Assembly (NCBI RefSeq): GCF_036237315.1
Contig: NZ_CP108357.1
Location: forward strand, 1 to 64,000
From: Streptomyces sp. NBC_01351
GTDB taxonomy: Bacteria > Actinomycetota > Actinomycetes > Streptomycetales > Streptomycetaceae
Reading direction: 5' to 3'
DNA: 64,000 nt
Position 1 is the first letter of the stretch; each line of letters starts with the position of its first letter. Positions 6,816-64,000 of this stretch are shown piece after piece. A program made the translations under genes and the position numbers. Below the pieces are notes generated by a model, which made no database searches, was not told where the DNA came from, and was given only the letters and a program-made list of their open reading frames with translations.

Positions 6816-6833
6816 CTCCCGTTATTCGCCAGA

Positions 6834-32605: not shown

Positions 32606-33241
32606 CTACCAGGCGAGCGAGACCCGATCTGCCTTCCGCAGGTCGCCTGCCTGGACGGTCAGGTCGAGCCAGCCGTCGAGGGGGAACTCATCCAGTGTTA
32701 TGTAGTACACGTCCCGTCCGCTGGTCGCGGGAGAAAGTGTTCTGACGAACTCCCAGTTTAGCTCCCGGCTCTTGTATGCGGCGGAGACCACCTTCTCGCC
32801 AGTGTCTCCCAACAGGACGACTCGGGCTCCCGCGTTCAGTGCCCCAGGGCCATGGAGCGCGACGACCTTCGAGTCATTCTTCGGTCGTGCGGCATCAGTG
32901 GTCGAGCATTTGATCGTCTGCATGCCGCCAGATAGCGCCGATTCCCAGAGGCAGACATGTCCTTGTAGCGACTCCCAGAGGAAGGCGGTGACTCCAGGCA
33001 GATCGATCCGGCTGATGCCTGCGCTCGTGGGGATTTCCCCCATCCCCTTAGCCTGAGCGATCAGTTCTACCTCCTTCTGTTCCAGGTTCGACGAGCTCGC
33101 CTGTATCTGCGGCGCCGTGCTCGTCGCGGAGACGTTCGGCGCAGTGTGGGCTGCCTGGGGGCCACAGCCCGCAAGGGCGGTGCACGTGGCTGCACCCACC
33201 GCCCACCGAATCGCGGGATGCCTCAGGCCGGTGGTCAGAAT
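32606..33241 (-). CDS. Putative lipoprotein downstream of RHS; candidate immunity protein
   Basis: The mature ~180-residue protein follows a lipobox (TALAGC) and a Ser/Thr-rich linker. Its body contains LPGVTAFLWESLQGHVCLWE, GALNAGARVVLLGDTGEKVV and YYITLDEFPLDGWLDLTVQA. There is no ATG, GTG or TTG between the upstream in-frame stop and GTG 33199, and that GTG gives a signal peptide without positive charge. Reading from ATT 33241 or CTG 33238, 6-9 bases after GGGAG, gives a proper head (TTGLRHPAIRWAVGAAT). This start overlaps the RHS stop (ATTCTGA). Adjacency and coupling to an RHS tip suggest an immunity role, but that is inference. Confidence 0.65.
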   Translation of the reverse strand: MLTTGLRHPAIRWAVGAATCTALAGCGPQAAHTAPNVSATSTAPQIQASSSNLEQKEVELIAQAKGMGEIPTSAGISRIDLPGVTAFLWESLQGHVCLWESALSGGMQTIKCSTTDAARPKNDSKVVALHGPGALNAGARVVLLGDTGEKVVSAAYKSRELNWEFVRTLSPATSGRDVYYITLDEFPLDGWLDLTVQAGDLRKADRVSLAW

Positions 33242-39200: not shown

Positions 39201-39627
39201 CCTTGCCGGTGCGCGGAGCGTCCTTGGCCGACGCGGGGCTCACCCAGACGGGAGCGGTGCCCGCGCGGCTCGGATCGGCGGCGGGAGCCGCTGGGACACC
39301 GGAAGGTGCGGGCGCGGTGAGAAGCGAACCGCGCGGAGCAGCGGGCGCCGTAGCACCAAGATCCACCTCGGCCTGAGAAGCAGGCGGCCAGTACACGTCC
39401 TTCGGGCGCCAGGATGTTGCCCCGTCGCCCTTAAGGGTCTTCGGATCGATCTTCGGAGCGTTCTTCCCGGAGACCGACTCGGTCTTCTTTAATACGCCCG
39501 GTGACCAGCGGCGTTGATCTTTTGGCTGCCACTGCGCGGCTTGGGCAGTTCCCGAGCCGACGAGCAGCGAGAGTGCCACTAACACTGGAACTGCGATGCG
39601 CTGTTTGATCTTCGAGTTTCTTCTCAT
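33235..39627 (-). CDS. Giant secreted RHS/YD-repeat protein, candidate polymorphic toxin
   Basis: The 2130-residue protein starts at ATG 39627 (MRRNSKIKQRIAVPVLVALS) with a signal peptide cut near AQAAQ. The N-terminal third has beta-rich SpvB-like wall segments (AIAVPDALGGTKPTIDLSYS-type pattern, GEGWDYSPGFVERTFKPC). The centre has many YD repeats (YDxxGRxxxxxDPxG, e.g. YDLHGRQIRSVDPDKGTSTV). The RHS core ends at LGAREYDSVLGRFLSVDPLM and NSPLTESDPTGK near residue 1873. The last ~255 residues are unrelated to the core: a Cys pair CDGC, then GWSAGVSATIGAGFDLKVAE and TRSTTLTKTVPMKVKGGEHY, a Thr/Ser-rich beta pattern recalling aerolysin/ETX-type pore formers. In-frame start 39657 is the alternative. 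Confidence 0.9.
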   Translation of the reverse strand: MRRNSKIKQRIAVPVLVALSLLVGSGTAQAAQWQPKDQRRWSPGVLKKTESVSGKNAPKIDPKTLKGDGATSWRPKDVYWPPASQAEVDLGATAPAAPRGSLLTAPAPSGVPAAPAADPSRAGTAPVWVSPASAKDAPRTGKAAVQLTDRAAAEKAGIQGLLLTVRPAGDVVKAGPVKVSVDVSHIAGAFGGDWLHRTHLVRLPECALTTPEHAECRTQTPVTTARDGDRAGLLSAEVPLKGGSAGESLRTSEASTASDGATVLGVTAAPGGPAGTYAATSLAPSGKWSSGGNAGGFSWSYPIAVPDALGGTKPTIDLSYSSQAVDGRTAATNNQASWIGEGWDYSPGFVERTFKPCAKDGQADSSEQCLAGHNATVSLNGKSSTLVRDDTSGTWRLENDDASKVEKLTGATNGDNNGEYWKITTPDGTQHYFGVGRKPGSATAPATNSAWTTPVYGNNAGEECNKPTFAASWCQQAWRWNLDFVVDSRGGMTTHSYATETNHYKLGVSAATPQGTLTPYIRGGNLEKITYGSKLTDADTFKPTAQVVFGVEERCLPVKDVFDCAPAKLTAANATKWPDVPFDQKCATTGTCENYSATFWTTKRLTKITTQVLDSAGGYANVDSYELKHQFPPTSDNTAPSLWLASLLHTGHDGATTLPTNPVVFYGKPLNNRVDSSVDNRPAMNKYRVVKIESETGQVTDVGYADPDCAPGAGLPSSKDGNTTRCYPAYWNPDNKSPLDPTLDWFHKYVVTRVTELDNFSGSRPQEVRYEYVGGAAWHRDDEELTEDKRRTWNQFRGYEQVITRAGTAPDPISKRTTFYLRGMDGDIKADASKRTATFTGLAGNTIKDADPLAGTVRETQTFASDGGELVAISENEPWLSKVTSTHSRGTKLPALTAQMQRDGSSREKKLRADKTWQTTSETVKYDDTYGMQEWTRDQADGLPDTCTKTSYTRNTAAWMIDRVSETIQIQSSDCATTATEANTLSRNRTSYDGQTHGTLNGPGQVTSTEELDRFEAGQPKYTVNSTRAYDAYGRVISSIDAVGAKTTTAYEPSAQARATTIKVTNAKNWTTTTTLHPLRGTPVKTVDQNNRTTEAEYDALGRTTRVWQPGRARSDSASKVFTYDLTNTGTSSVTTQTLRASGLYATSISILDGLGQKVQLQEDPKIEAEGRRLITDTWFDSHGRAVKTNNTYVNADSAPVKTRFIADENMVPATNTTLHDGLGRTVANVFSSKAQEQWRTITAYPGVDRTDTTPPKGDSATSVLTDAQGRTVERRKYKSPTPTGEYDTTRYAYNTDGKLTRITDPAGNIWTYDYDLHGRQIRSVDPDKGTSTVTYDAADRPASTTDARGTTVFTSYDTLGRPTSRNQNTVDGPELATYEYDTLLPGQPTASTTWVDGKPWRRETTSYDIGYRPTGTKLTVPEGEGALTGTYAASTTYNTITGLEYQTNLPAAGGLPFERLRTSRFASGLPRSYGSDNVNYVNYVNYDELGQVRRTTFGDDPKQASFTNTLDPATGRLLSTEFKKQDASTAVDITDYTYTQAGDVTSVTNTQGATRDTQCFTYDYLRRLGEAWTDTGTTTTQPGPSVPGIGNCTNLTPQPGKIGGPAPYRQSFTYDVTGNRTSSTDHDPAGDAAKTVTTTHTYPAPGSPRPHAPTSTTNKTGSAPEVTSAITYDDTGNTLTRPNAPGSTQTLTWTPEGKLASATTPAGTSTYAYDAAGNRLLRKDPGKTTLYLGSTELTLNTTANTVTGTRYYSTPGGTTIVRTSDGKLTYVAADHHNTGTTAIDATTLQVQRRTTKPFGEDRGTAPAAWPGERGFVGGTQDKTTGLTHLGAREYDSVLGRFLSVDPLMIVDDPRQHNAYQYANNSPLTESDPTGKAIEECASGMYTCTNAGTKPTGYGKNYEREVNNSRGTLAPEYVKQKNRNKAPRHFCDGCTTMPPRAPKGLVAPSGGQDVLWSETFWVRNAYYTDYTTAGMLDVAPNDTDVTFAYSEQAMYAAAEQFADKIGWSAGVSATIGAGFDLKVAEVKAEVSATLGINGDYTWTNIDTKTRSTTLTKTVPMKVKGGEHYGLSPHGVIDTYTTTYHHADGRTSTKTWGAFDLTSWTPVTYSEIPINRVALNATVLKTGSTPF

Positions 39628-39958
39628 CGCTCGAAGTCCAGCCGTTGGTGCCGACACGGCATTCCCCCCACGGTCGCCGAGTGGATCAATTGGCCTGAGA
39701 GCCTAGCCTGTTGGCCGTCCGCAATACATGAACCAATCCGGACAAGACATCTCGGCCCGACCTGCAAGGTTCCGAAGATTGCCTGAAACCCGACAGTTCG
39801 CTTACGCGATGGCCGGATCGCGTCGATCGATTTATCACGATCCTGCGAAATAGTTCCCAGGAATATCGAGTTCCGAATTCTGATCACAGGCCGCCCGATC
39901 GGATGGGCTGTTAGCGTTCACGCCCAGTTGTCGGAAACGATCACACTGGGGAGTTCCC
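39628..39958. promoter_or_regulatory. Divergent promoter region between RHS and lectin/LamG genes
   Basis: This 330-bp gap is the only AT-rich stretch for several kb (for example ATCGATTTATCACGATCC and TTCCGAATTCTGATCA around 39825-39885). Both giant genes start from its edges. No gene is present. I cannot assign promoter boxes with confidence. Confidence 0.5.
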
Positions 39959-42900
39959 GTGGGGGGAATGTTACGAAGAATGCGACCGGCCCGTCGGCCG
40001 GTCGCGCTGGCCGGGCTGGTCGCACTTGCCCTGTCCGTCACATCCGTCGGCGCGGCGCCGACCGCCTCGGCAGTCGACAAGCCGGCGGCACCGGCCGCTC
40101 AGACGCCGCCGGAGCGGCCGACGACCGAACGGGAGCGGGCGGAGGACACCGCGCTCGCGGAGGCCAAGCGCACCGGGAAGCCCGTGCCCGTGCCGGCAGG
40201 GACGACCGAGACCGACACGGTGATGGCCAACCCGAACGGCACACTGGGCCTGACCCGCAGCGTCGCCCCGTTGCGCACCAAACGCGACGGCAAGTGGGCC
40301 GAGCTGGACGCCACCCTCGTCAAGGCGGCCGACGGCACGCTCAGCCCGAAGGCCTCGGTGAGCGGCCTGACCCTGTCCGGGGGCGGCACCGCGCCGCTTG
40401 CCACGCTGGACCAAGACGGCAAACAGCTCGTGCTGAGCTGGCCGGAACCACTTCCCGCACCCGTGCTGGAGGGCGCCAGCGCCGTCTATCGCGAGGTGGT
40501 CCCGGGCACCGACCTCAAGGTCACGGCCGATGAGGGCGGTGGCATCTCACAGATCCTCGTCGTCAAGTCCGCCGCGGCCGCGAAGCACCCGAAACTCGCC
40601 AAGCTGACCACCGGCCTGAAGGGCCAGGGCGTCACCGTCTCCGCTGACGGCAACGGCAACCTGAAGGCCACCGATGCCTCGGGCCGTACGGTCTTCCAAG
40701 CTCCGACCCCCACCATGTGGGACTCCACCCGCCCCGTCCAAACTCCCCTCGCCGAACCGTCGAACGCCGCCGCGTTCTCCGAGGCGGCGACCGCAGCCCA
40801 GATTGCGGACGACGAACCGGTCAAGTCCGCCTCGGACAGCGCCGGCCCGGGCGACTCCGCCAAGGTCACCCGGCTCCAGACCGACCTCGGCAAGGACTCC
40901 CTCGCCCTCACCCCGGACCAGGCCTTCATGGCCGACCCCGCCACCACCTACCCGGTCTACATCGACCCGGCATGGCAGCCCACCAGCCGCGGCACCCAGC
41001 ACTGGGCCTGGGTACAGGAGGGCTACCCCACCACCGTCAGCTACGACGACTACAGCGACACCTACGACCCCGGCGTCGGCTACCAACGCTGGCGCACCAG
41101 GACAGGCCTGGAGCGCTACTACGTACAGCTCGACACCAGCGACCTGCGCGACAAGAGCATCAAGAAGGCATCCTTCTTCGCGACCCAGTCGGACGCCGCC
41201 GACGCCACCTGCAGCAACACCTACAACGTAGACCTGCACTCCACCGAACCGCTGCTCTCCAACATCACCTGGAACACCCAGCCCCGGGACTGGGAGATCC
41301 TGCGCACCACCTCCCTCAACAGCGCGGGCGGCCCCGGCTGCCCCGACGCCACCACGCGCGGTGAGTGGGACGTACGCGCACACCTCGCCGCGAACGAATG
41401 GCGCGGCAGCCTCACCTACGGCCTCTTCGCCTCCAACGAATCCAAGAGCAGCAGCAACAACTCCTTCAAGCGGTTCACCCGCGACAAGAACGACCTGCCC
41501 TTCCTGTACATCGAGTACAACCGGCCGCCGTATGACCCGTGGTCCCTTGGCATGAGCCCGGAGCCGAAGAACGCGAACGGCAACGGCTGCGGCTGGGTCG
41601 GCGCCACGGGCTATGCCGGGCTGCGCATTGACGCGTGGATCGGTGATCCGGACGGACAGTCCAACGACGCCCGGTTCCTGGTCCACGACGTCAACGGCGC
41701 CGTGGCCTACGACAGCGGGTGGGGGAACCAAGCAAACGGCACCCACTGGGCAGCCGCGTTGCCGAACAACCTCTCCGACGGCCACACCTACTGGTGGCAG
41801 GTCCAGGGCGGTGACGGCGACATGACCTCCAACTGGGTAAACGGCTGCATGTTCAGCATGGACACCCAGCTCCCGTCCATCCCGGTCGTCACCTCCGCCG
41901 AGTATCCGCCGTCGGGTACCCTGCCCGGCTCCACCAAGCACATCGGCCAGCCCGGTACCTTTACGGTGAAGGCCGCAGACTCCATCAGCGGAGTCCTGTA
42001 CTACGAGTGGGCCTTCAACTCGACCATCCCGGTCGGTGGTGCCAACCGCGTCGACGCGGCCGCCGACGGCAGCGCCACCATCCCGCTGACTCCGACGACC
42101 TGGGGCACCAACATCCTGCGCGTCCAGTCCGTGGACCGCGCCGGCAACCGCTCTCAGCAGCAGACCTACACCTTCTACGTCCCCGACAACCCGAACGCGA
42201 AGACCACACTCGGCGACATCACCGGCGACGAACGCGTCGACTTCATCGCCCCCGCTGCCAACGGCGACCTCATCGTCTACCCGACCGCCATCGACCCCGC
42301 AGCCGGCGGCATGCTCGCCTCCAACGCAGCCAACAGCCCCGACGGCAAGAGCTGGGGCAACGGCACCCTCGTCACCCACCGCGGCGGCAACGGCATCCGC
42401 ATCGACGACCTATGGGCCTACCGCGACGGCAACCTGTGGCTCTACCGCAACTCCCTTACCGAGGGCGGCCTCGAAGCCTACGGCGGCCTCTACTACAGCA
42501 AGGCCAATCGGGGCGAGGGCGTCACACGGCCCGACGCAGGGGATTGCCGCGTCGCCGCCACAGGCCAGCCCTGTGGCGCCGAGTACGCGGGAACCTGGGC
42601 ACGGGTCAAGCAGATCCTCGCCGTCGGCGACGCACTACCGGAAGCAGGCGGCGTCACCCCTCGCAATGATCTGATCACCGTAGAGAACGACGGCACGAGC
42701 AGCGCACTGATGTTGTTCCAGGGCACCGGCACGACTGGCGAACTGCGCGACCCTCTCGTGCTCGTCCTTAGCCCCACAGGCTGGGACAACCTCACCCTCA
42801 TCGCCCCCGGTGACGCCACCGGCGACAGCCTCCCCGACCTCTGGGCCCGCGACAACACCACCGGCGACGTCTACCAGTACGCCAACGTCGCCGGAAACCC

Positions 42901-44176
42901 CGCAGCCCTCGGCGACCACACCAAGCGCACCAAGATCAGCTCAGGCGTCAACGCAACCACCTACCCTGTCATCGGCACCTCCGGCGACACCAGCGCCGAC
43001 GGCATCCCCGACCTGTGGGCCCTGGACAGCCTCCACCGGCTGCGCACCTGGAACGGCGTCGCCACCTCCGGCAAGGTCACCGGATTCAACACCGGCCACA
43101 CCATGGGCGACGCCCGCATCTCCACCGCGCACTGGAAACTGAACGAGGCCACCGGCAACACCGCCATCGACCTCCGCCGCCGCAACAACGCGGCCCTCAG
43201 CGCCACCGGCGCCACCCGGGTCAAGGACGACACCGTCGCGGGCACCACCACCGACGTCGTCGCCCTCAACGGAACCACCGGAACCGTCACCGCCGCCGGC
43301 CCTGCCGTCGACACCACCCGAAGCTTCACCGTCTCCGCCTGGGCCAAGTCCAACAAACCCACCGGCGTCGTTCTCAGCCAGGACGGAGCGCACGCCAGCG
43401 GGTTCATGCTCTGGCACGACGGGGACGGCACCTGGCGGTTTGGAATGTCCAAGCGGGACGACGACGGCTGGGATTACGACCAGACCCTAGTCATGAACGA
43501 CGCCGCCAAGGTCCAACTCAATGCATGGATCCAGCTCACCGCCACGTACGACGACCGGACCGGCCTGATTGCCCTCTACGTCAACGGCACCCTGGCCGGC
43601 ACTGGCCACCACGCCAAGGCCAACGCATGGAATGCCACCGGCCCCCTGGTCATGGGCCGCTACAAGAGGGCGAGCAAGACGTCCTCCTTCTTCGAAGGCG
43701 GTATCAGCAACGTTTCCGTCTACAACCACTCCACCGTCCCCACCGCAAACGGCACCAAGCTCGTCTCCGCGCTGAACTCCGCAAAGTGCGCAGACAACAA
43801 CTTCGGCAACAGCATCGACGGTAACCGCATCCAGATCTGGGACTGCAGCACCACCAACGACGACCCTGCTCAGAGATTCGCCATCACGGCAGACGGTGAA
43901 CTTCGCATCGGCGGAAAGTGCGTAGACATCTCAGGCGGCGGCACGACCAACGGCACCCCGATCCTGCTGTGGACCTGCGCCACCGGCGCCTACAACCAGC
44001 AGTGGCTCCCCACCGCAACCGGCGGCTTCTACAACCCGCACTCCGGCCGCTGCCTCGACCTGCCGTACGCCCGCACCGACAACGGCAACCAACTCGAACT
44101 GTTCGACTGCACCTACGGCAACAACCAACGCTGGCACGCCCCCGGCCTCGCCACCCCCCTGGGAAACGCCAGCTGA
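39959..44176 (+). CDS. Giant secreted protein: DNRLRE-like, VCBS/FG-GAP-like, LamG and ricin-type lectin domains
   Basis: The 1405-residue protein begins at GTG 39959 with GGGGAG seven bases upstream (ATG 39968 is an alternative). A signal peptide is cut near TASAVDK. Residues ~90-530 are a DNRLRE-like wall region (NPNGTLGLTRSVAPLRTKRD; DPAWQPTSRGTQHWAWVQEG; NITWNTQPRDWEILRTTSLN). FN3-like stretches follow, then repeat-type GDITGDERVDFIAPAANGDL and GDATGDSLPDLWARDN segments. A LamG domain (FTVSAWAKSNKPTGVVLSQD) and a C-terminal ricin-B lectin with QxW-type repeats (YNQQWLPT, NNQRWHAP) complete it. It probably binds glycans outside the cell. Similar proteins accompany RHS genes in Streptomyces, so the two may act together. 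Confidence 0.88.
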   Translation: MGGMLRRMRPARRPVALAGLVALALSVTSVGAAPTASAVDKPAAPAAQTPPERPTTERERAEDTALAEAKRTGKPVPVPAGTTETDTVMANPNGTLGLTRSVAPLRTKRDGKWAELDATLVKAADGTLSPKASVSGLTLSGGGTAPLATLDQDGKQLVLSWPEPLPAPVLEGASAVYREVVPGTDLKVTADEGGGISQILVVKSAAAAKHPKLAKLTTGLKGQGVTVSADGNGNLKATDASGRTVFQAPTPTMWDSTRPVQTPLAEPSNAAAFSEAATAAQIADDEPVKSASDSAGPGDSAKVTRLQTDLGKDSLALTPDQAFMADPATTYPVYIDPAWQPTSRGTQHWAWVQEGYPTTVSYDDYSDTYDPGVGYQRWRTRTGLERYYVQLDTSDLRDKSIKKASFFATQSDAADATCSNTYNVDLHSTEPLLSNITWNTQPRDWEILRTTSLNSAGGPGCPDATTRGEWDVRAHLAANEWRGSLTYGLFASNESKSSSNNSFKRFTRDKNDLPFLYIEYNRPPYDPWSLGMSPEPKNANGNGCGWVGATGYAGLRIDAWIGDPDGQSNDARFLVHDVNGAVAYDSGWGNQANGTHWAAALPNNLSDGHTYWWQVQGGDGDMTSNWVNGCMFSMDTQLPSIPVVTSAEYPPSGTLPGSTKHIGQPGTFTVKAADSISGVLYYEWAFNSTIPVGGANRVDAAADGSATIPLTPTTWGTNILRVQSVDRAGNRSQQQTYTFYVPDNPNAKTTLGDITGDERVDFIAPAANGDLIVYPTAIDPAAGGMLASNAANSPDGKSWGNGTLVTHRGGNGIRIDDLWAYRDGNLWLYRNSLTEGGLEAYGGLYYSKANRGEGVTRPDAGDCRVAATGQPCGAEYAGTWARVKQILAVGDALPEAGGVTPRNDLITVENDGTSSALMLFQGTGTTGELRDPLVLVLSPTGWDNLTLIAPGDATGDSLPDLWARDNTTGDVYQYANVAGNPAALGDHTKRTKISSGVNATTYPVIGTSGDTSADGIPDLWALDSLHRLRTWNGVATSGKVTGFNTGHTMGDARISTAHWKLNEATGNTAIDLRRRNNAALSATGATRVKDDTVAGTTTDVVALNGTTGTVTAAGPAVDTTRSFTVSAWAKSNKPTGVVLSQDGAHASGFMLWHDGDGTWRFGMSKRDDDGWDYDQTLVMNDAAKVQLNAWIQLTATYDDRTGLIALYVNGTLAGTGHHAKANAWNATGPLVMGRYKRASKTSSFFEGGISNVSVYNHSTVPTANGTKLVSALNSAKCADNNFGNSIDGNRIQIWDCSTTNDDPAQRFAITADGELRIGGKCVDISGGGTTNGTPILLWTCATGAYNQQWLPTATGGFYNPHSGRCLDLPYARTDNGNQLELFDCTYGNNQRWHAPGLATPLGNAS

Positions 44177-53998: not shown

Positions 53999-54252
53999 GG
54001 GCGCTGCACCCGCGCAAGACGGCGGTCGAGCTCATCGTCGAGCTCGTTCTGCTCGGCCGGAGTCGGCGCGTACCCGTTCCAGGCCCGCAGCGCGGCCTGC
54101 GCCTTCTCGGCGCGTTCGGCGCGCTCGGCCGGCGTCAGCATCGTCTCGGCCAGCCTGGCCAGGTAGGCGCGCAGGGATAGACCCTCTGCGGCCGCGATCG
54201 CGGCCAGGCGGTCCTTGGCTTCCTCGGGGATTCTCACGTTGGCATCGGACAT
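53995..54252 (-). CDS. RHH-type antitoxin (VapB/ParD-like)
   Basis: Reading from ATG 54252 (MSDANVRIPEEAKDRLAAIA), the 85-residue protein has a ribbon-helix-helix core (NVRIPEEAKDRLAAIAAAEG then LSLRAYLARLAETML) and a charged helical tail (AERAERAEKAQAALRAWNG, ELDDELDRRLARVQRP) that would wrap the toxin. The in-frame ATG 54270 adds six residues. It sits just downstream of a 24-bp palindrome, its likely operator. Confidence 0.8.
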   Translation of the reverse strand: MSDANVRIPEEAKDRLAAIAAAEGLSLRAYLARLAETMLTPAERAERAEKAQAALRAWNGYAPTPAEQNELDDELDRRLARVQRP

Positions 54253-54277
54253 CGTTGTGCTCCTTCCCATCCCTCTA

Positions 54278-54301
54278 GGGTACGGGTACGTACCCGTACC
54301 C
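54278..54301. promoter_or_regulatory. 24-bp perfect palindrome, antitoxin operator
   Basis: GGGTACGGGTAC is followed directly by its exact complement GTACCCGTACCC. It lies 26 bases upstream of the antitoxin ATG and is followed by more TACCCG units (to ~54308). RHH antitoxins bind such palindromes to repress their own operon. Confidence 0.8.
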
Positions 54302-54317
54302 GTACCCGCACGGGCGC

Positions 54318-54460
54318 CTACTCTCCGGAAGGCGCGGCACAGGCGAAGCAGAAGGTGACGCTGTCGTGAATGCCGTGGGTGCGGTCGGACCGTAGGTCAC
54401 AGAACCGCGCTGCGTCGGCCGCCGTTTTCGGATCACCCCGGCCCTGTGCCTCCGCTACGG
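54318..54460 (-). other. Possible small Cys-rich frame without a start
   Basis: A minus frame ending at 54318 reads DPKTAADAARFCDLRSDRTH then GIHDSVTFCFACAAPSGE. It has Cys spacing (FC..., CFAC) like a small zinc-binding protein, but no ATG, GTG or TTG is visible upstream before it enters the TIGR02391 gene. It is either a remnant or starts inside that gene by an unusual codon. Confidence 0.25.
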
Positions 54461-55198
54461 CGTCGCTGCGGCCTGACGGCGCTTGGCGCGTTCGACCTGA
54501 CGCAGCAGCAGGTCGGCGAACTGGATGATCTCGGCCGCCTCGATCGGATCGTCGAAGTCGACCGTGCGGTGGCTGGCAGGGTTCTTGTACGCGCCAATGG
54601 CACCGGCGAACAGCGCGGAAGCGGCCTCCTGCTCACCACCTTCGGCTCCGGCATCGGCGAGCGGGCCGCCGGCCTTCCCGTTCTGGTGCGGCTGGAACGC
54701 TGCACGCATCAGCTTCACGCCGACCAGGGAGTTGTCGAGTCCGGAGGCATCCCGGACGGCGACCTCGACCGCCTTCATCGCGGCGAAGCACGCCGTCTCG
54801 TAGTCACCCAGGTCGAAGTTGGTGCGCACCGTGGCTTCCAGGGCCGGGTGGAGCGGGCCGGACAACCGCTGGCCGGCTTCGAACCGCGTGATGCCCTCCG
54901 GGTCCTTCGCCAGGCCCCTGCCGTCGCGGGAAAGCTGGCGGAAGGCTTCCGACTGGCTGGGCACCCGGGACAGCAGCGCGTGCGCCTCCAGCCAGGCCCA
55001 GGCATCGGAAAGGCGGTCCACGAGGGCGTTTGTGTCCGGCTCGTCCTGGAACGCCTGGCGGGCCGAGCCCACCGTCCCTCCGTACTGCAGGAGACCGGTG
55101 CCGCTGGCGAGGTGCTGCAGCAGAAGGAGCGCAACGTCCCGGGTGGGCAGCTGCCGGATCTGTTCCGCCGGTACCGGCGGTATGTACGTGAACGTCAT
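54455..55198 (-). CDS. TIGR02391 family protein
   Basis: The 247-residue protein has the family pattern in its C-terminal half: HPALEATVRTNFDLGDYETA, CFAAMKAVEVAVRDASGLDN, LFAGAIGAYKNPASHRTVDF and IIQFADLLLRQVERAKR. TIGR02391 (Ymh-type) proteins have unknown biochemical function but often appear on phages and in defence islands. The start is ATG 55198. The gene is transcribed away from the TcmP-like gene across a 390-bp gap that contains a 9-bp-arm palindrome. Confidence 0.8.
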   Translation of the reverse strand: MTFTYIPPVPAEQIRQLPTRDVALLLLQHLASGTGLLQYGGTVGSARQAFQDEPDTNALVDRLSDAWAWLEAHALLSRVPSQSEAFRQLSRDGRGLAKDPEGITRFEAGQRLSGPLHPALEATVRTNFDLGDYETACFAAMKAVEVAVRDASGLDNSLVGVKLMRAAFQPHQNGKAGGPLADAGAEGGEQEAASALFAGAIGAYKNPASHRTVDFDDPIEAAEIIQFADLLLRQVERAKRRQAAATP

Positions 55199-55340
55199 GG
55201 GCGCACGCTACGGCGTGGCACCGACACCCGAGTTCCAATTTCCCCCGTCCGCGGGCCGGTCGGTGGAAGGCAGGATGCCGGGCAGAGCGGCGGCGCGGGC
55301 GTTGACCGGACAACTGACAATTCGCTCCCTGGCACCGGGA

Positions 55341-55359
55341 CCGTTTCCATTGGAAACGG
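55341..55359. promoter_or_regulatory. Palindrome in divergent promoter region
   Basis: CCGTTTCCA T TGGAAACGG is a 19-bp perfect palindrome about 140 bp from the TIGR02391 start and 230 bp from the TcmP-like start. It resembles a repressor site. No other feature is seen in 55199-55587. Confidence 0.55.
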
Positions 55360-55587
55360 CCACCCGTGCCGCGCCTCCTGGCAGCCGGGCTACGTCTTCA
55401 GTGGCTGGGGTCCCACCGCAGATCCGCTGGGTCGTCGACGGCAATGAGCTTGAGGCCATGCCGGTGGTGAAGCGCCGGCAGTGTGCACGCCGCTCGGCGA
55501 TGAGAGATGGCCAACCGGCGTTATAGACAACAGGCTCCCCAACGATGACGCTGGGTGTCCGATCAATGGGGATCAGGGGGGCGAGCC

Positions 55588-56700
55588 ATGCGGCGAGTGG
55601 AGGAACTTCGTGAGCGGACCGTCTGGAAGAGCGATCCGCATACCCAGGTCAAGCACCTCGTATACCGACACTACCTGCAGTGCTGGATGGCGAAGATCCT
55701 CCAGAAGTTCCCAGAGGCCACCATCGTGGACGGCTTCGCAGGCCCCGGCGTCTACAACGACGGTCCGCCCGGCTCATCGATCGTCGTGGCCAAGACCTTC
55801 CTTGAGCACTCTGCCCACCGGAGGTTCAATCGGCTCAACCTGATCTGCCTCGAAGAACGGCCCGACCGGGTGGATGAACTGAAGCGGCAGTTCGCGCTCC
55901 TGCCTCGCTCGCCCCAGCTCAACATCAGCGTGCAACCGCCAGGCACGTTCGCGGTGGAACAGCGCCGCCTGTCCGTCCTCGCACACCGCGGCCGTCGCGA
56001 GACCCCCGTCCTCTGGCTGATCGACCCGTTCGACCTCAAGAGCGCACCGTTCTCTCTGATCAGGCAGTGCCTCGCCACCCCCCGTGCCGAAGTGCTGTTC
56101 ACGCTCTTCACGAACGAACTGCACCGCTTCTGTCAGCGCGACGGCTTCGACAAGACGATGACCGCCTACTTCGGAGGGGATCACTGGCGTGACGTGACGA
56201 TTGAGCGGCGCGCCGGGGTACGTAAGGAGGCGTTCGCCACCGTCTACCAGCAAGGTCTCCGGGACGAAGGCTTGTTCACCGGCAGCTTCGGCATCAAGAT
56301 CAGCAACCAGAGTGCCCGCTACCATCTGATCTTGGCTACCCACAGCGAAGCTGGCCTGAAGTGCTGGGCCCCCGTCACCTGGAAGCTGGACACCTACAGC
56401 GGGCAAGGCGCCTCGGCGGACACAGCTGATGCCCTGTCCCTTTTTGATGCGGCTTCGGTGGTGGACCGGCTGGAGCTCGCCCTGCGCGCCCACGCTGGCA
56501 CGGAGCAGCGCTGGGAGGCCCTCTCCAGCGAGGCCGCCCGGCTGAACCACATGGACAAGCACCTGCGCCAGGTCCTGGACAACCTGGCCGCGCAAGGGCT
56601 GGCCTTCCGCGTCGACCCGGTCCGTGCGCGCACCGCTTGGCCGGAGGGGTGCACCGTGCGCTTCTACGCCCCGGAAGACGTGGCAGATGAAGCGTCCTAG
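55588..56700 (+). CDS. Three-Cys-motif partner protein (TcmP-like)
   Basis: The 370-residue protein starts at ATG 55588 ([20 protein letters not shown]) after AGGGGGGCG. The landmarks fit Tcm[41 protein letters not shown] (SAM-binding-like loop), [38 protein letters not shown]. TcmP proteins are Rossmann-like and are found beside a three-Cys-motif (DUF5131, Gp37/Gp68) protein. The likely function is SAM-dependent modification, but the substrate is unknown. It converges on the DUF5131 gene with stops sharing CTAG. GTG 55555 is an alternative start. Confidence 0.85.
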
Positions 56701-57455
56701 CCGGCCGGAAGCAGCATCTGGCGGTGCGGCATTTCGTCCCAGGTCCGGCCTTCGAGAGTCCGGCCTCCTGCCTTTGGCGTGTGGCCACCCCACTGTTTGA
56801 AGAAGAACGCCACGTTCTCCTCCACGCACTGGTCACGGATCTGCGTGACCCAGGCGGGATCCATGGGCCGGTGCTTAGGCCCTGACTCGCCTCCCGCGAT
56901 CACCCAGTGGATGCCCTCCAGGCGCAGGCCGTCGAGCGGACCGAGCAGGGGCTCGCAGGACAGGAACCGAACGGCGGCCGGCACCTGCCGCAGATCGTCC
57001 ACCCGCGGCAGCTCCTTCGCGGTTTCCACCGACACTCCCATCCACACGTTGGCCGGCCAGTCGAGCCGGTCGGCGACCTGCCGCAAGCGGCGGGCACGCT
57101 TGGTCAGCACCTGGTAGGTGTGCTGGGGGGTGTCGGCCATGACCTCGAAAACACGGCGAACGAAGTCGAGCGGGACCCGGGCGTGGAAGAGGTCCGACAT
57201 GGAGTTCACGAACACGGTCCGCGGGCTCTTCCATCCGTAGGGGATGTCCAGCGCGTCGGGGTGGACCGTGAGATCGAAGCCCGGCCCGGACGTTCTCGAA
57301 TCACCGTCGTTCTGGTACTTGGCCGCGCCCATCGCCTTGAGCCTCTTCGCCAGAGTCAGGGCGTAGCAGTTATCGCACCCCGACGAGACGCGATCACATC
57401 CGGTCGTTGGGTTCCAGGTTGCCTCAGTCCACTCAATGGAACTCCGGTCAGCCAC
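56697..57455 (-). CDS. DUF5131 / phage Gp37-Gp68 three-Cys-motif protein
   Basis: The 252-residue protein begins [20 protein letters not shown], and the three-Cys motif [14 protein letters not shown] follows at once, the hallmark of DUF5131. Further blocks are [49 protein letters not shown] and [20 protein letters not shown]. The three Cys fit an iron-sulfur site, and the family is suspected to be radical-SAM-like. GTG 57455 has GGAGG at a good distance (GGAGGCGAACCAGTG). The gene converges on the TcmP-like gene, unlike the usual same-strand order. Confidence 0.88.
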
Positions 57456-57877
57456 TGGTTCGCCTCCATCTCGCCCCGCCTGTTCCGGCACCCCTGGCCC
57501 ATCAGCGGCACAGCTTTCGGAACGGGCACCGCCATACAACCATCCCTGAGCCCCTCCCTTTGTTGGAACGGCGGGGGCCGTTGGCCGGGCGGGCGGCAGC
57601 TGCGGGGGCCCTGCAGCACGAGGCGAGGCCATCGCGGTAGATGGGGCGCACAGATGTCAGCCCCAATCCGGCCGCACCCGTGCTTCGAGCGCCCTCGCTG
57701 TCCAGCGGCTCGTGGCGCTGGCGGTCCTCTTCGGCTGCTTCGGGAGCCGCGTCCGGGGGCGTGTTCATCGCGCGAGCCGGCCCACCCTGCACCGGCCAAA
57801 GAGAACACGACCGGTCCACGGCGGCCCTCCTGGTGGAGGAACCGACGCGGTGCCGAGCAGGTCAGCACGGCCGTTTC
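57456..57877. other. Intergenic, no convincing gene
   Basis: Several minus frames cross this ~420-bp gap, one beginning MNTPPDAAPEAAEEDRQRHE. None has a good ribosome site or conserved-looking domain. The promoter of the DUF5131 gene should be near the left end. Confidence 0.35.
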
Positions 57878-58048
57878 CTACACAGGTGGGGCGAACACCC
57901 GCCGCCAGAGGCGGTGGTATGGACCGCCACAGGAGCGGCACCGCGCCGACACCGGGCCGAACTCCGCGTTCGGCATGGCCAGGTACTCCTGATCCTCGAT
58001 CCGCACGACCAACTGTGGTTCCGTGCACCCGCATACGGTGGCCGTCAT
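57878..58048 (-). CDS. Small zinc-ribbon-like protein, 56 aa
   Basis: ATG 58048 begins MTATVCGCTEPQLVVRIEDQ. A CGC pair near the start and CRSCGG near the end could form one zinc site, and it ends HRLWRRVFAPPV. It lies divergent to the five-ribbon GIY-YIG gene, with 87 bp between starts. The family is not known to me. Confidence 0.5.
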   Translation of the reverse strand: MTATVCGCTEPQLVVRIEDQEYLAMPNAEFGPVSARCRSCGGPYHRLWRRVFAPPV

Positions 58049-58135
58049 GGACAGCGGGCGGTTTGGCATCTGCCGCTGGGCGGGCACGGGCCGGGTGGGT
58101 ATGGTTCGGCGATTGCAGCATGTGAGGAGAGACCG

Positions 58136-59437
58136 GTGGGAGCCGCCCAGAGTAGCCCGGAAGAGGCCGAAGCCCAGATGCGGGCCGCCGGTCTCGAACC
58201 TCTGGCACCGTACCCGGGGCGGAGCAATTCCCCCTGGCTCTGTCGCTGCACACGGTGCGGCGCGATCGTGACTCCCACCTTCCGGTCTGTTCGGCGCGGC
58301 AGTTGCGGCTGCCGTTCCTGCGGATACGCCAGCCGCACCCCGAAGAAACCAGTATCGACGGACCAGGCCGTCGCCGACATGCGCGCGGCTGGTGTGGAAC
58401 CCCTGGAGCCCTACCCAGGAGCAAACCGCGCGTGGCGCTGCCGATGCGTGTCATGCGGCCGGGAGGTGGCGCCCAGCCTGTCCAATGTGCGCATGGGAGG
58501 CGGCGCATGTCGTCACTGTGGACGGGCCAGGGCCGGAGCTGCCTCTCGCACTGATGCGGATGAGGCTGCCGATGTGATGCGCGCGGTGGGGCTCGAACCC
58601 TTGGAACTCTATCCCGGCAGCAATAGGCCGTGGTCCTGCCGCTGCACTGCCTGTGGCAAGACCAGCAGTCCCCGGTATGCAAACGTCAACAGCCGTGGCT
58701 CCGGCTGCGTGCACTGCGGGAGAAGGCGAGGGGGTGCTCAGCGACGGAGCGATCCCGAGGCGGCAGTGGCCGACATGCAGGCCGCGGGCTTCGAGCCCTT
58801 GGAGCCCTACCCGGGTCGGGTTACGGACCATTGGAGGTGCCGCTGCACCACGTGCGGCAACATCGTGACCCCGAGGTACGCCACGACCCGCAGGGGCATC
58901 GGCTGCTGGCACTGCGGCCACAATAGGAACCGCGTCGACTCCGACCAAGCCGCTGCCTCCATGCACGCTGCTGGCCTCGAACCTCTGGAGCCCTACCCCG
59001 GCGTGGACGCCCCGTGGACATGCCGCTGCATGCGGTGCGGCAACACCGTCAAACCCAATCTCACCAGCATCCGCGCTGGTCAGGGCTGTTGGTACTGCGC
59101 TAAGCGCGGTATCCAGCTCACCACCCCTGCCCTCCTCTATGTGCTGCACCACCTAACGCTCAACGCTGTCAAGATCGGCATAACAGGGGCCGCGGACCGG
59201 AGCCGCCTCGATCAGTTCCAGCGTCACGGTTGGAGCATCTACCGCACCGCCCGTTACGACACCGGGGAGCAGGCCCGGACCGCCGAACAGGCAGTCATGG
59301 CCCAGATACGTGCACGAGGAGTCAGGCACTACCTCACCCCCGAGGTCATGCCGAATGGCGGCCACACTGAGACATTCGACGCGGACCTGTTGGGTCCGGA
59401 GGACCTTTGGCGCATGGTCAGCGCATTGAAGGCCTGA
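58136..59437 (+). CDS. Five-repeat zinc-ribbon protein with C-terminal GIY-YIG-like domain
   Basis: The 433-residue protein starts at GTG 58136 with AGGAGA eight bases upstream. It has five tandem repeats of ~58 residues. Each reads MRAAGLEPLEPYPG, then PWxCRCxxCG, then a short beta part and GxGCxxCG; every repeat has a CRC-xx-C triplet and a CxxC pair. The last ~100 residues (TPALLYVLHHLTLNAVKIGI, LDQFQRHGWSIYRTARYDTG, EQARTAEQAVMAQIRARGVR, NGGHTETFDADLL) fit a GIY-YIG-like nuclease core: LYVL and VKIGIT for the two GIY/YIG strands, Arg in SRLDQF, Glu in GGHTETF. The ribbons probably bind DNA and deliver the nuclease. It could act as a homing, repair or defence nuclease. Confidence 0.75.
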   Translation: MGAAQSSPEEAEAQMRAAGLEPLAPYPGRSNSPWLCRCTRCGAIVTPTFRSVRRGSCGCRSCGYASRTPKKPVSTDQAVADMRAAGVEPLEPYPGANRAWRCRCVSCGREVAPSLSNVRMGGGACRHCGRARAGAASRTDADEAADVMRAVGLEPLELYPGSNRPWSCRCTACGKTSSPRYANVNSRGSGCVHCGRRRGGAQRRSDPEAAVADMQAAGFEPLEPYPGRVTDHWRCRCTTCGNIVTPRYATTRRGIGCWHCGHNRNRVDSDQAAASMHAAGLEPLEPYPGVDAPWTCRCMRCGNTVKPNLTSIRAGQGCWYCAKRGIQLTTPALLYVLHHLTLNAVKIGITGAADRSRLDQFQRHGWSIYRTARYDTGEQARTAEQAVMAQIRARGVRHYLTPEVMPNGGHTETFDADLLGPEDLWRMVSALKA

Positions 59438-59485
59438 CCCTGCTGCGGGAGCACTGCATGCCAACGCGCAGCGTACATGGTCCGC

Positions 59486-60310
59486 TCATCCAGTGAGGTC
59501 CAGGCGCCTGGGCTCGGTGGCCACGAACAACGAGGTGAGCCCAGCCTTCTCCGCCCGGGCCCGGCGCCGAGCGGCAGCTTCGGTGGCTGCGGCCTGGCGA
59601 CGACGCTCGGCACGGGCGTCCTCGATCGTGTCCGGCCCGCCGTCCGGATTCGACTCCGGATCGGGGAATGCGCGAGGGTTCGCCTCACGAAGGACCCTGT
59701 TCTGCCGCTCCACCGCGGCGGCGATGGCCGGGTCTGCCTGCCGCTGCGTGTGGACCTGCTGGTGGGCTTCGAGTGCACGGCGGTAGCCGGCCGACGCCGT
59801 CTCGCGAGTTCGAACCGTGCCCTGCGGGGCCGAGGTCCTGACCAGGTCCGGTTCGGCGGCCGCGCTGGGCGAGGGCAGCAGTCCGGGTGGCAGCACGCGG
59901 ACCATACGGACCGCTTCTGTGCGCGCGGACTGGTTGGCGTTGGCGATGATCCGCGACGTCTGCAGGCGTGCCTTCGTTGCCCAGGCAGTGGAGTCGGGGC
60001 GCAGCGTCAGCTCTCCGCGCTCCGCGTCGTAGCCCACCGCAGCGATGTGTCCGGCGAGGTCGGGGGCGAGGGCCGCCCAGCGTTCGCACAGCCCGGCGCC
60101 GGCCGCCGGGATCTCCCAGTCGCGCTCGGCCATCAGCGCGGTGAACGCCTCGCCCAGGCCCATGGGGGCGCGGCCGTCGCGCCGGACCTCCCGGGTCAAC
60201 CGCGGCTTGCTCTTCGCCGTCCGGGCGCCGTTCTTCTTCGCGGCTTCCCGCGCTGCCCGCAATGCAACGCGGGCCAGGTCCACGCCGCTGGGCTGGGGTG
60301 GCTGGCTCAT
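59486..60310 (-). CDS. DUF721/DciA-like protein
   Basis: The 274-residue protein starts SGVDLARVALRAAREAAKKN and has the DUF721/DciA core GRAPMGLGEAFTALMAERDW, AALAPDLAGHIAAVGYDAER, GELTLRPDSTAWATKARLQT and AVRMVRVLPPG. DciA loads the replicative helicase. The C-terminal 110 residues are Arg/Ala-rich and disordered. ATG 60310 overlaps the stop of the upstream Rep-like gene (ATGA), so the pair is coupled. Confidence 0.8.
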   Translation of the reverse strand: MSQPPQPSGVDLARVALRAAREAAKKNGARTAKSKPRLTREVRRDGRAPMGLGEAFTALMAERDWEIPAAGAGLCERWAALAPDLAGHIAAVGYDAERGELTLRPDSTAWATKARLQTSRIIANANQSARTEAVRMVRVLPPGLLPSPSAAAEPDLVRTSAPQGTVRTRETASAGYRRALEAHQQVHTQRQADPAIAAAVERQNRVLREANPRAFPDPESNPDGGPDTIEDARAERRRQAAATEAAARRRARAEKAGLTSLFVATEPRRLDLTG

Positions 60311-62067
60311 GACGCCACCACCTCGTGGGCGAGCTCCTGGGAGCGGTGGGTGAGGCAGACGCTGCGGGTCGGCAGGGCCCTACGGGTGCAGAGCGTCTCA
60401 CCGTCGCGGCCGGAGCATGTCCCCGGCACCGACGGCGCAGCGGGAGCGGCAGGCTCGACGGCGGCCAGGGCGTCGGCCTCCTCGCGGCAGAGCTTGCACA
60501 GCCCGGTGTCGACGGCCAGGCCAGTCAGGAAGATTCGGCATCCGCAGCCGACGCACGAAGAGCGCTGCGGGCCTTCGGGCTCCCGGGGTACCGGCACCCG
60601 GGCCGGGCGCCGGATGGCGGCCTCCAGTTCGCAGTCGGTGCAGCGCCCGGACGGGCCGGGCCGGGTGCCGTGCTGGGGGCACAGGCCCTGCTCCAGGTGC
60701 TGCTCGCGCTGGCGGGATGCGTGCCGGTCCTGGATGGTCTCGGCGCACAGCTCACAGGCCGCACCGGTCCGCCAGATAATCCCGGCCTCGCAGTCCTCGT
60801 AGCCGCAACCCCACCGGGGCAGGGCCACCCCGAGCAGCCACCGGCCCGGGTCACGGATGTCCGAGAGCGCCACGGGGGCCAGGCGGGCCGTCAACCGGTG
60901 CCGAAGGCGGTCGGGGGCCGTGCCCCCGTGCAACTGACGGCCCACCTCACGGGCGATCTTCCGGGCGACGAAGCTGCTGGTGACCTGCTTCAGCAGCACG
61001 TGGACCGGCTCCAGCACGGCGTAGATCTCCGGGCTCATCGCCAGCTGCGGTCCGGTGTACGACGACCGGGCCGACCCCCCGGCCTTGCTGCTGCGCTTTT
61101 CGCCGTTCGGCTTCGAGGAGGGCTGGCTGATCTCACCCGCGCGCAGCGCGACACCATCCCCGCTTTCCGAACGCGCCTCCGCGTCAGCCGCGATTTCCAC
61201 AGCCTCAGCGCCCTCAACTACCCGTACCTCGCCTACGGCGGGTGAGGTGAGTGCGCCCTCGTCATCAGGTGAGTCAGTCGTAGGTGATTCCCTATTCGCG
61301 AGGGATCCCTCACCAAACGACAGACCCGATCCCTCACCAACCAGCGAACTACCCGCCCTCTCCACAGCACCGCCCACGGGCTCCTGCACGCACTCCTGGA
61401 CCGTCTCCGGCTCCGTGTCCGCGGCCTGCTCACCGTGGCCCACAGCGGCTGCGGGGGCGATGTCATGGGCGATGAACCGGTGACGGCCCTGCGCTCCTGC
61501 GCGCCGCTGCACCGTCACCCACCGCGCCGCCTCCAGACCGTCGATAACCTCACCGGCCGCCGCCGCCGTGATCGGCTGGCCGGCCCTCTGACCCGAGTGG
61601 TGCCGCAGGTGCCCCGCCAGCTCCCCCTCGGTCAGCGCAATGCCCATCTGCTCCGCGAACGCGATCACGGCGAACGCACGCAGCTGCCTGGGCGTGAGGT
61701 CCTCCGAGGCGGCCACCGGCAACCACACGAACTTCTCCGTCCGCGTCATCGGCCGCACCGTCCGCAACGCCGACTCACCCTTCCCGCCGGGCAGGGTGCG
61801 ACGGGTCGACCACAGCTCTACGACCCCGTCCAGCCCAGGACGGGTCAACTGCGTCATGCCCCGCTCCACCGACGCCACCGACAGCCCCAGGTACGAAGCG
61901 ATCGTCGCCGACCGCGCCTGACACCCCTCCGGCCGCGCACCCAGCGCCTTCACCTTCACGTACACCGACAGCGCCACATCCGCGTAGAACGGCGACGACA
62001 CCAACCGCATCGGCACCCGCACCCGCTGCCGACGCACCGGAACGCCGTCGGCCACGGCAGAAGACAT
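60307..62067 (-). CDS. Winged-helix Rep-like protein with zinc clusters
   Basis: The ~586-residue protein (from ATG 62067, MSSAVADGVPVRRQRVRVPM) has a helix-turn-helix part (residues ~20-140: FYADVALSVYVKVKALGARP, RSATIASYLGLSVASVERGM). A second winged-helix follows (DLTPRQLRAFAVIAFAEQMG). The middle is long and disordered. The C-terminus has Cys pairs (CGYEDCEAG, CELCAETI, CTDCELE, CVGCGCRIF, CKLCREE) of at least two zinc sites. The layout fits a plasmid replication initiator or origin-binding protein, but no sequence proof exists. The open frame continues upstream to 62610, and start sites at 62094 or the GTG at ~62247 (VSPEKLHPHRFAG) are possible. Confidence 0.6.
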   Translation of the reverse strand: MSSAVADGVPVRRQRVRVPMRLVSSPFYADVALSVYVKVKALGARPEGCQARSATIASYLGLSVASVERGMTQLTRPGLDGVVELWSTRRTLPGGKGESALRTVRPMTRTEKFVWLPVAASEDLTPRQLRAFAVIAFAEQMGIALTEGELAGHLRHHSGQRAGQPITAAAAGEVIDGLEAARWVTVQRRAGAQGRHRFIAHDIAPAAAVGHGEQAADTEPETVQECVQEPVGGAVERAGSSLVGEGSGLSFGEGSLANRESPTTDSPDDEGALTSPAVGEVRVVEGAEAVEIAADAEARSESGDGVALRAGEISQPSSKPNGEKRSSKAGGSARSSYTGPQLAMSPEIYAVLEPVHVLLKQVTSSFVARKIAREVGRQLHGGTAPDRLRHRLTARLAPVALSDIRDPGRWLLGVALPRWGCGYEDCEAGIIWRTGAACELCAETIQDRHASRQREQHLEQGLCPQHGTRPGPSGRCTDCELEAAIRRPARVPVPREPEGPQRSSCVGCGCRIFLTGLAVDTGLCKLCREEADALAAVEPAAPAAPSVPGTCSGRDGETLCTRRALPTRSVCLTHRSQELAHEVVAS

Positions 62068-62438
62068 GGACGAGCGCGGAGCGGGGATCATCACGGCGGC
62101 CGGCGCTACCGCAGCTACACGACGGACGGCGGGATGTCCAGGAAGCGTGATTTCCAGTCGACAGGTCTGATAGTCGGGCAAGGTGGGAGCAAACGGGGCC
62201 TCGGTCGTTTGCTTCCCGGCGAAACGATGAGGGTGCAACTTTTCAGGGGACACCACATCGGGCACTATGAGGATCGACCACCTATCCATATGGATGCTGA
62301 GACCGGCCCGCCACGCGGGCTGAGATCGCTTCTCCTTGGGTATGTGGACCGCCCCCTCCGTGAGGAGCGGGCGGCCGGACGAAGAGCAGCGGCGACCTCC
62401 TTCGGTTTGTCGATGTGAATCGGACGGGTGTACTGGCG

Positions 62439-62576
62439 GCCCTTGGCGGGGCCGGTAGTGCGACGCAGACGCCCCTTGGCGGGGGCCCTGCGGAACTGCA
62501 ACTGCAACTGCAGTTGGACCTTGGCTAGAGGCCCTCGTGGCCCTGGCTAGGGGCCTGTCCCGCTGATAAGGCGGGG
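62439..62576. repeat. Repeat cluster upstream of the Rep-like gene, candidate origin
   Basis: CCCTTGGCGGGG occurs at 62440-62451 and 62473-62484. ACTGCA is repeated three times at 62495-62512 and continues into a palindrome AACTGCAGTT. TTGGCTAGAGGCC-like 15-mers occur at 62519-62533 and 62541-62555. CCCGC-TGATAAG-GCGGG forms a hairpin at 62559-62575. Coding continues in one long minus frame but with shadow composition. The rest, 62577-62815, has no gene seen. Confidence 0.5.
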
Positions 62577-62815
62577 TTGGGTTATTGCGCAGATGAAGAA
62601 ACGGCTCCATGAGCCGAAGCTCAGGACCCGGGTGGTACCGGAAACTGAGCAGGCCGGTCCGGGTGGTAAATCCGGTCGGCAGACGGGCCGCGTAAGCGCC
62701 GACAGAGGGTGGCTAGTCCACTCCTAGGCGCGCGGCCGATGGCCGCTAGGTCATCCCATCCCCCTTGAATCGGAGGTTGGCGTCAGCATGCCCACACGTG
62801 GCTGCGTGCGTGAGG

Positions 62816-63082
62816 TCAGCCCGCATCGGGCACCTCCACCGCTTCTGGGTGCTTCTCGGCCAGTCGACGAAGGAGACGGGCATAAGCATCACGCCAAGGC
62901 TGGCGGGGCTCTGTCTGGCCCGACTCCCAGCGCAAGATCGTCAGACGCTTCACCTGGAGCGCATCGGCCAGCTGTTGCTGTGTCAGGCCATCTGCGAGGC
63001 GGAGTTGTCTCCGGACGGGCGGAGCGGGAAGGTCGGGGTCGCGGTCGACCAAGGCATCAACGGCCTTGTTCAGATCCGACAT
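62816..63082 (-). CDS. XRE-family HTH regulator, 88 aa
   Basis: The small protein has LRLADGLTQQQLADALQVKR LTILRWESGQTEPR, a textbook XRE helix-turn-helix (residues ~28-62), with a helical C-terminus. The start is ATG 63082 (MSDLNKAVDALVDRDPD) with GGGGAGG 5' on the minus strand. It could repress itself or a neighbour. No partner gene is adjacent. Intergenic sequence 63083-63405 (~320 bp) shows no gene and should hold both divergent promoters. Confidence 0.85.
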   Translation of the reverse strand: MSDLNKAVDALVDRDPDLPAPPVRRQLRLADGLTQQQLADALQVKRLTILRWESGQTEPRQPWRDAYARLLRRLAEKHPEAVEVPDAG

Positions 63083-63405
63083 CAGAAACCTCCCCTAGCC
63101 AACACTGATGCTGTGAAAGATACATGAAGGCGGTGATCTTCGGTACCGCAAACGAGCGTGTTCCCGCTTGAGACGCCGACCACCCCCACCCGACTCGACA
63201 CCCTTCGCTGACGATCTCTCTATCCTGACCTGAAAACGGCCAGTTCACCGCCGTAGGGCCCTCAAATCCCAACAGATTTAGGGCAGTAGTTCCAGCGCGC
63301 TTCGACAAGGAATTCGAACCCTCCCGCGTGGTGGGAAAGTGGACCGCAAAGTGTCCCGCCATACGGGATGCCCACCAGCCGCGAGAACGTCAACGGGTAG
63401 GGTCC

Positions 63406-64000
63406 ATGCCCGTGCACCGCCTTGCGATCTTCGACCTGGACGACACGCTGATCGACCGGCGGTCGGCGGTCGGCAGTGCCGTCGCCAGCCTCTGCCTTGC
63501 ACGCGACTACGAGCCAGCCGTCGAGCAGTGGCTGCGCGCCGAGCTGGCCGATCGCGCGAACCCCGCGGACTTCGCCCGACTCAGCACGGTCTTCAGGCTG
63601 CAGGAGCCGGCAGAGGAACTCTGGCAGGAGTACGTCGACCTCATGGGCGCCTTCGCCGCATGCCGCCCAACCGTCCTCGAAGGGCTGGCCCAACTTCGCG
63701 CAGCAGCATGGACGATCGGCATCGCCACTAACGGCCCCAGCGATATCCAGCGTGCCAAGCTCGCCGCGACCGGAATCACCGAGCTGGTCGAGGGCATCGC
63801 GGTCTCCGGCGACATCGACGCCCGGAAACCTGATAGGCGACTCTTTGACCTCGCGGCTACCCGCTGCGGCCGACGACTCTCCGACGGCGGCTGGATGATC
63901 GGCGACAATCCAGCCGGTGACATCGAGGGCGGGCGCCGAGCGGGCCTGCGCACTATCTGGATCCGCGGCCGAAGCTGGCCCGACCCGCTCGCAGAGCCGC
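63406..64000 (+). CDS. HAD-superfamily hydrolase, 3' end cut by the window
   Basis: From ATG 63406 the visible 198 codons read MPVHRLAIFDLDDTLIDRRS, with the HAD motif I (DLDDT) at the start. Motif II follows in WTIGIATNGPSD and motif III/IV in ARKPDRRLFDLAATRC and GGWMIGDNPAGDIEGGRRAG. All catalytic Asp and the Lys are present, so it should be an active phosphatase-type hydrolase. The reading frame is still open at the window end, and the substrate is not predictable. Confidence 0.88.
   Translation, partial: MPVHRLAIFDLDDTLIDRRSAVGSAVASLCLARDYEPAVEQWLRAELADRANPADFARLSTVFRLQEPAEELWQEYVDLMGAFAACRPTVLEGLAQLRAAAWTIGIATNGPSDIQRAKLAATGITELVEGIAVSGDIDARKPDRRLFDLAATRCGRRLSDGGWMIGDNPAGDIEGGRRAGLRTIWIRGRSWPDPLAEP

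Follow-up and report, generated by a model that had tools for sequence, protein, structure and literature searches.

What does a gene do that joins five zinc-ribbon repeats to a GIY-YIG-like nuclease domain? The question is raised by positions 58136..59437, forward strand, of the window, the 64,000-nucleotide stretch analyzed here (positions 1 to 64,000 of contig NZ_CP108357.1, Streptomyces sp. NBC_01351). The initial annotation had noticed the repeats and the nuclease-like C-terminus, and this observation was real, with correct coordinates and numerous homologues, because of which a chance origin of the features of this open reading frame (ORF) is excluded. The open frame spans 57641-59437, and the coding sequence of 433 amino acids (aa) begins at the GTG at 58136, the likely translation start, which lies 4 nt downstream of a putative ribosome-binding site, GAGGAGAG (58124..58131, forward strand). 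Taking the anatomy of the protein and the mobility of its relatives together, we lean towards a free-standing homing-type endonuclease gene.

A module profile, derived from the repeats of the protein itself and refined iteratively with its 120 best homologues, placed the five modules, all on the forward strand, at residues 15-63 (58178..58324), 82-129 (58379..58522), 148-195 (58577..58720), 214-261 (58775..58918), and 276-322 (58961..59101). The proposed repeat length of ~58 residues was just approximate, the starts being spaced 67, 66, 66, and 62 aa apart and the core comprising 48 columns. Module-to-module protein identity in the window copy is 51-62%, and its modules are 60-79% identical to reference copies at the DNA level. 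Across 955 modules from 121 proteins, conservation is strong at the four probable zinc-ligand positions, columns 23 (C in 74%, H in 25%), 26 (C, 99%), 44 (C, 99%), and 47 (C, 100%), and M1, P8, W19, C26, C44, and C47 are near-invariant. Of the suggested signature CRCxxCG...CxxCG, the first C of CRC is kept in just 69% of the modules, and either G or A comes after the CxxC of the second knuckle. Both knuckles are conserved across the modules, as in a treble-clef zinc ribbon, and this residue pattern predicts that they bind metal. The AlphaFold2 model (43 sequences) predicted the modules confidently (mean pLDDT 91.8), and the low pTM of 0.51 would fit modules arranged as beads without firm relative placement. 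A Pfam match to RecO_C (22-25 bits, near the cut-off) was dismissed as a short zinc-knuckle resemblance, as were matches to HypA, RNA-polymerase-P, and GATA.

The GIY-YIG-like domain occupies residues 330-433 (59123..59434, forward strand). All 111 C-terminal domains compared, that of the window protein included, have Y335, G348, R357, E384, G409, E412, and T413, and 110 have the lysine K346; these domains were chosen by length alone, and the 43-sequence alignment agrees, while in a smaller set of 52 domains Y, K, G, and R had partly been preselected by the search pattern. The C-terminus thus keeps the key positions of the GIY-YIG superfamily, as had been claimed, namely the conserved tyrosine (Y335), the second-motif glycine (K346-x-G348), the arginine (R357), and the catalytic glutamate (E384), though without the literal GIY and YIG letters, which here read LYV...KIG, with KxG as the second motif in 110 of the 111. 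Structure prediction, which had been proposed as a check, gave strands 332-339 and 344-351, helix 356-363, strand 367-374, and helix 377-393, which is the beta-beta-alpha-beta-alpha order of GIY-YIG domains, and a separate model of the nuclease domain showed the identical order. The fold match to solved structures is weak, the best rows being those of Slx1, a structure-selective nuclease; sequence searches of solved structures found no convincing relative, and the lack of an I-TevI-type structure among the listed structure-search rows is uninformative. The window protein has no hmmscan match to Pfam GIY-YIG (PF01541), the only match in its own genome being on another contig (C1), and T5orf172 (PF10544) has no match in that genome and matches 1 of 43 aligned family members (E 0.0077). 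In a single hhalign comparison with a T5orf172/MUG113 set of the same genus, the local probability was 51.6 (E 1.5e-4) and the global probability 7.2 (E 0.0013). Based on its conserved residues and predicted fold, the C-terminal domain is a probable DNA-cutting domain.

How widespread is this architecture? A search restricted to proteins between 0.55 and 1.75 times as long as the query gave 1021 related proteins with E<=1e-3 out of 7992 candidates scored, and the best 120 of these, together with the window protein, make up the 121 proteins analyzed. All of them have 5-10 modules, followed by the nuclease domain in 111, with the nuclease inside the array in seven, and with modules only in three (P0002, P0007, and P0109); the nuclease of P0037, missed by the pattern search, was recovered in the length-based set. 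Ten-module relatives with a mid-array nuclease domain were also found among the genome loci (L066, L070, L072, L074-L077, L079, and L084), as well as three-module ORFs without it (L103-L107, L109, and L111), which are perhaps regulators like CapR. Matches occur in 57 of 295 genomes of the same genus, its own included, and in 41 plasmid records, of which 29 are from Streptomyces and 22 have a single region that spans 80% or more of the query. Out of 60 genome loci taken up, 59 bear actinobacterial titles; the other, from a Verrucomicrobiales metagenome-assembled genome (L093), has the modules with a different C-terminal domain, which we take to be Vsr-like. Phage records gave four partial matches to the window protein (22-34% identity) and one to P0048 (38%), and six loci came from a collection of putatively viral contigs. 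CapR and DUF4379 each match 4 of the 43 aligned members, the window protein not among them, and PF05265 (presumably DUF723) is precomputed for many homologues, yet is not among the families obtained by hmmscan of the 43.

Evidence for mobility came from a group of 13 orthologues (a duplicate, L026, was dropped) that have six modules each, are 77-99% identical, and are under purifying selection, with omega versus L013 of 0.13-0.33 for the modules and 0.04-0.38 for the nuclease. DNA comparison with L013 showed an upstream kinase gene common to 10 of the 13, and three others (L014, L064, and L091) have only the nuclease gene in common with L013 and not its surroundings, with less than 1 kb of right flank comparable in L014 and L091. 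The stretch shared with L064 is 5648-7315 of L013, the ORF being 5767-7293; in L017 and L061, which have the kinase and the nuclease as in L013 with a different small gene between them, the left edge is nearly the same (5650). Presence and absence at one site with the same flanks were found at three loci. On pFRL4 (L128), the kinase gene is directly followed by the next gene; at this point, L133 carries 2.27 kb (small gene and nuclease) instead of 158 nt, and a part of this insert (8811-8946) is similar to a gene that lies farther on in L128. On pSCL3 (L127), the nuclease is absent that L019 carries at the 3' end of the same kinase gene in opposite orientation, the interval between the shared flanks being 567 versus 1121 nt. 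Finally, where L064 has its unit (about 6788-8536), L173 and L174 have another ORF (1430-2791 of L173, in reverse orientation); the flanks on both sides are shared, and L173 and L174 carry an additional 1.5 kb that is absent from L064. These events are replacements, and therefore homing is the likeliest route, yet not the only one.

One Ser/Thr-kinase gene on linear plasmids of Streptomyces appears to have an insertion hot spot at its 3' flank (L012, L013, L019, L127, L128, L132, and L133), and this flank is used by two different nucleases of the family in opposite orientations. A kinase-nuclease fusion, suggested by plasmid annotation, turned out to be two convergent, slightly overlapping neighbors. 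The order kinase, small gene, nuclease on several plasmids was considered as an operon or defense system and rejected, since it is absent in 3 of the 13 orthologues and the small gene differs in L017 and L061; a DUF4209 gene follows downstream only in L012, L013, and L017.

The gene in the window, which is carried on a linear plasmid, is ~47% identical to this orthologue group, whose behavior it would presumably share, and no close orthologue was found among the relatives examined, nor an empty site in 392 genomes and the plasmids compared. As judged from its flanks, it lies on a mosaic junction. On the left, a TcmP gene (55555..56700, forward strand) and a DUF5131 (Gp37/Gp68) gene (56697..57632, reverse strand) form a pair with 81-83% identity to two plasmids (L056 and L057) in which different genes come next. 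The left edge itself is a truncated remnant of 210 nt (57880..58089, reverse strand), which aligns at 82-85% identity with the 3' end of a hypothetical gene of 1497 nt on a Streptomyces goshikiensis plasmid (L060), the remainder of which has no match within 54000-63999. The right edge is a DciA-family gene (59486..60310, reverse strand), convergent with the nuclease gene with 48 nt between their stops, and the first of a block conserved on Streptomyces plasmids; it and the next gene show 75-89% identity in 17 of the 30 plasmid rows listed, and 51 plasmid records have a match somewhere in the 8.8-kb stretch. In the three of these 17 plasmids that were inspected (L055, L058, and L059), no module-bearing ORF was found. 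Near this block, an 88-aa helix-turn-helix protein (62816-63082, reverse strand) resembles positions 2-81 of the model for Tap, the telomere-associated protein, at 83 bits, far under the cut-off.

How would such a gene spread? The five treble-clef modules may line up along a DNA target and recognize it, the C-terminal domain would cut beside the recognized target, and repair templated by the gene-carrying DNA would then transfer a copy of the gene, together with flanking DNA, to the cleaved molecule. By this route, the gene could spread among linear plasmids and chromosomes and stay at the junctions of exchanged DNA. A homing or defense enzyme had been suggested initially, and the mobility in relatives speaks for the former, whereas no positive evidence was obtained for defense, the PADLOC models giving no family at E<=1 for the nuclease protein. 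A domesticated nuclease for plasmid competition or defense, whose array recognizes rival plasmids, satellites, or phages for cutting, nevertheless has points in its favor: the 48 nt that separate the gene from dciA, the purifying selection in relatives, and the neighboring TcmP/DUF5131 pair, which matches the PADLOC candidate systems PDC-M30 and PDC-M41. There is also precedent, as Odn, the origin-directed nuclease of phage ICP1, is a T5orf172-type nuclease turned against a mobile element and cuts the origin of a satellite, according to PMC10448857, and a GIY-YIG nuclease of a Lactococcus plasmid has been suggested to act in this way, as a possible restriction nuclease, or to be a homing remnant (PMC4420470). 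Since the protein itself has no PADLOC match, the neighborhood varies across the family, and a target is not known, we regard this explanation as unlikely.

A junction-resolving GIY-YIG enzyme of recombination or repair, with a zinc array that binds structure and not sequence, is less probable still. Slx1 as the best solved-structure match would suit it, as would the recombination role proposed for T5orf172 in PMC7824862, but modules that are conserved by position yet mutually different are unneeded for a sequence-independent binder, and the patchy distribution, with 57 of 295 genomes, is against it. Least probable is that the protein mainly regulates by binding DNA, as the CapR repressor does, and that its nuclease domain is silent or secondary. 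This is favored by the nuclease-less module proteins (3 of 121, and several three-module ORFs) and by the CapR matches of some relatives, and the invariant catalytic positions in 111 nuclease domains speak against it.

If the gene is a homing-type endonuclease gene, what does its array read? Modules correspond by position between relatives, with 59-100% identity at matching positions and 27-74% elsewhere (five comparisons). Arrays differ by whole modules: in 101 pairs of unequal module number, drawn from 96 proteins with a complete start and not independent of each other, the unmatched module was N-terminal in 51, internal in 49, and at the nuclease end in one. Mosaics occur as well, since P0056 and P0095 are 81% identical in the nuclease and 100% in one module, which is 71% identical between P0041 and P0095, whose nucleases are 97% identical. 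The idea that the repeats can be changed by recombination agrees with whole-module gain and loss in relatives, but not with the modules of the window copy, whose longest common exact run is 14 nt. A conservation gradient towards the nuclease, seen in single pairs, was rejected: similarity was higher for the two modules next to the nuclease than for the two farthest from it in 51% of 107 equal-length pairs.

A comparison of repeat number and recognition residues among relatives had also been proposed, and beside the 5-10 modules it yielded candidate specificity columns that are kept between orthologues. For each column, the divergence of orthologous modules was set against that of the modules within a single protein (360 pairs, 105 of 167 proteins). 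The resulting ratio was low at columns 34, 36, 41, and 42 (0.29-0.35) and high at columns 3, 22, 24, 25, 29, and 31 (0.60-0.76); column 48, also low (0.30), was kept out of the candidate set because it is a trimmed end. For 18 columns picked solely on between-module divergence, an earlier permutation having used columns from the same data, 14 groups agreed (Kendall W 0.46, Friedman p 9e-16, split-half rho 0.82). In these groups, columns 15-16, 33-36, 41-42, and 45-46 differ between modules of one protein and are kept between orthologues, and columns 22-31, around the first knuckle, drift between orthologues. Repeat-specific structure could give the same pattern, so the columns mark candidates and not contacts. 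Going by this pattern, it is conceivable, if rather doubtful, that the array is a natural length-variable DNA reader coupled to the nuclease domain, in which each module reads its own part of the target through these four sets of columns, with a transferable code like that of transcription activator-like effectors (TALEs) and zinc fingers. TALE and zinc-finger nucleases likewise carry tandem DNA-reading modules on a nuclease domain, with unrelated folds; the reading code here is hypothetical.

The concept of a modular zinc array on a GIY-YIG nuclease has already been published for phage T5orf172 homing endonucleases in PMC10448857, which describes 229 such nucleases, 200 of them with CapR, DUF723, or DUF4397 (as printed; = DUF4379) zinc domains, often several, and recombination between the zinc-domain repeats; its title places phage nucleases at mosaic junctions. 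The family described here shares with these the GIY-YIG-type nuclease with a variable number of related zinc-finger modules, the module recombination, and the position at boundaries of exchanged DNA. It differs from them in its place on actinobacterial plasmids and chromosomes, in a nuclease domain that Pfam T5orf172 does not recognize, in its few phage-record matches, which are partial and 22-38% identical, and in the mid-array nuclease of some relatives. I-TevI-type homing endonucleases also combine a modular DNA-binding part with a GIY-YIG domain, a comparison made in the discussion of PMC10448857, whereas I-TevI has a linker with one zinc finger and a helix-turn-helix instead of an array of 5-10 like modules. 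The word 'plasmid' does not occur in the text of that paper, and actinobacterial or plasmid members were not found in the literature covered (titles and abstract openings, with subscription literature mostly outside the scope). A large actinobacterial branch on plasmids and chromosomes is thus what is added to the published phage nucleases. If our reading is true, zinc-array homing-type nucleases are not restricted to phages and contribute to the reshuffling of linear plasmids and chromosomes in actinobacteria. Whether there is a further modular protein-DNA code beside TALEs and zinc fingers could then be tested directly on the many natural arrays, for which orthologues matched by position and specific candidate residues are at hand, and a test bed for such a code may be the best use of the family.

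The stretches compared on contig C2 (232,721 bp) of the same genome form two nearly identical inverted arms of ~104 kb inward (1-104115 and its mirror) around a unique center of ~24.5 kb. The window lies inside an arm, and the nuclease gene is consequently present twice, the second copy at C2:173288-174586; the arms are either terminal inverted repeats of very great length or an effect of the assembly. Elsewhere in the window, 12427-13719 (forward strand) encodes a TnpB-like protein (OrfB_IS605, Cas12f1-like TNB domain), and two divergent genes encode a 2140-aa RHS-repeat protein (33235-39657, reverse strand) and a 1405-aa protein that contains laminin-G and ricin-type lectin domains (39959-44176, forward strand).
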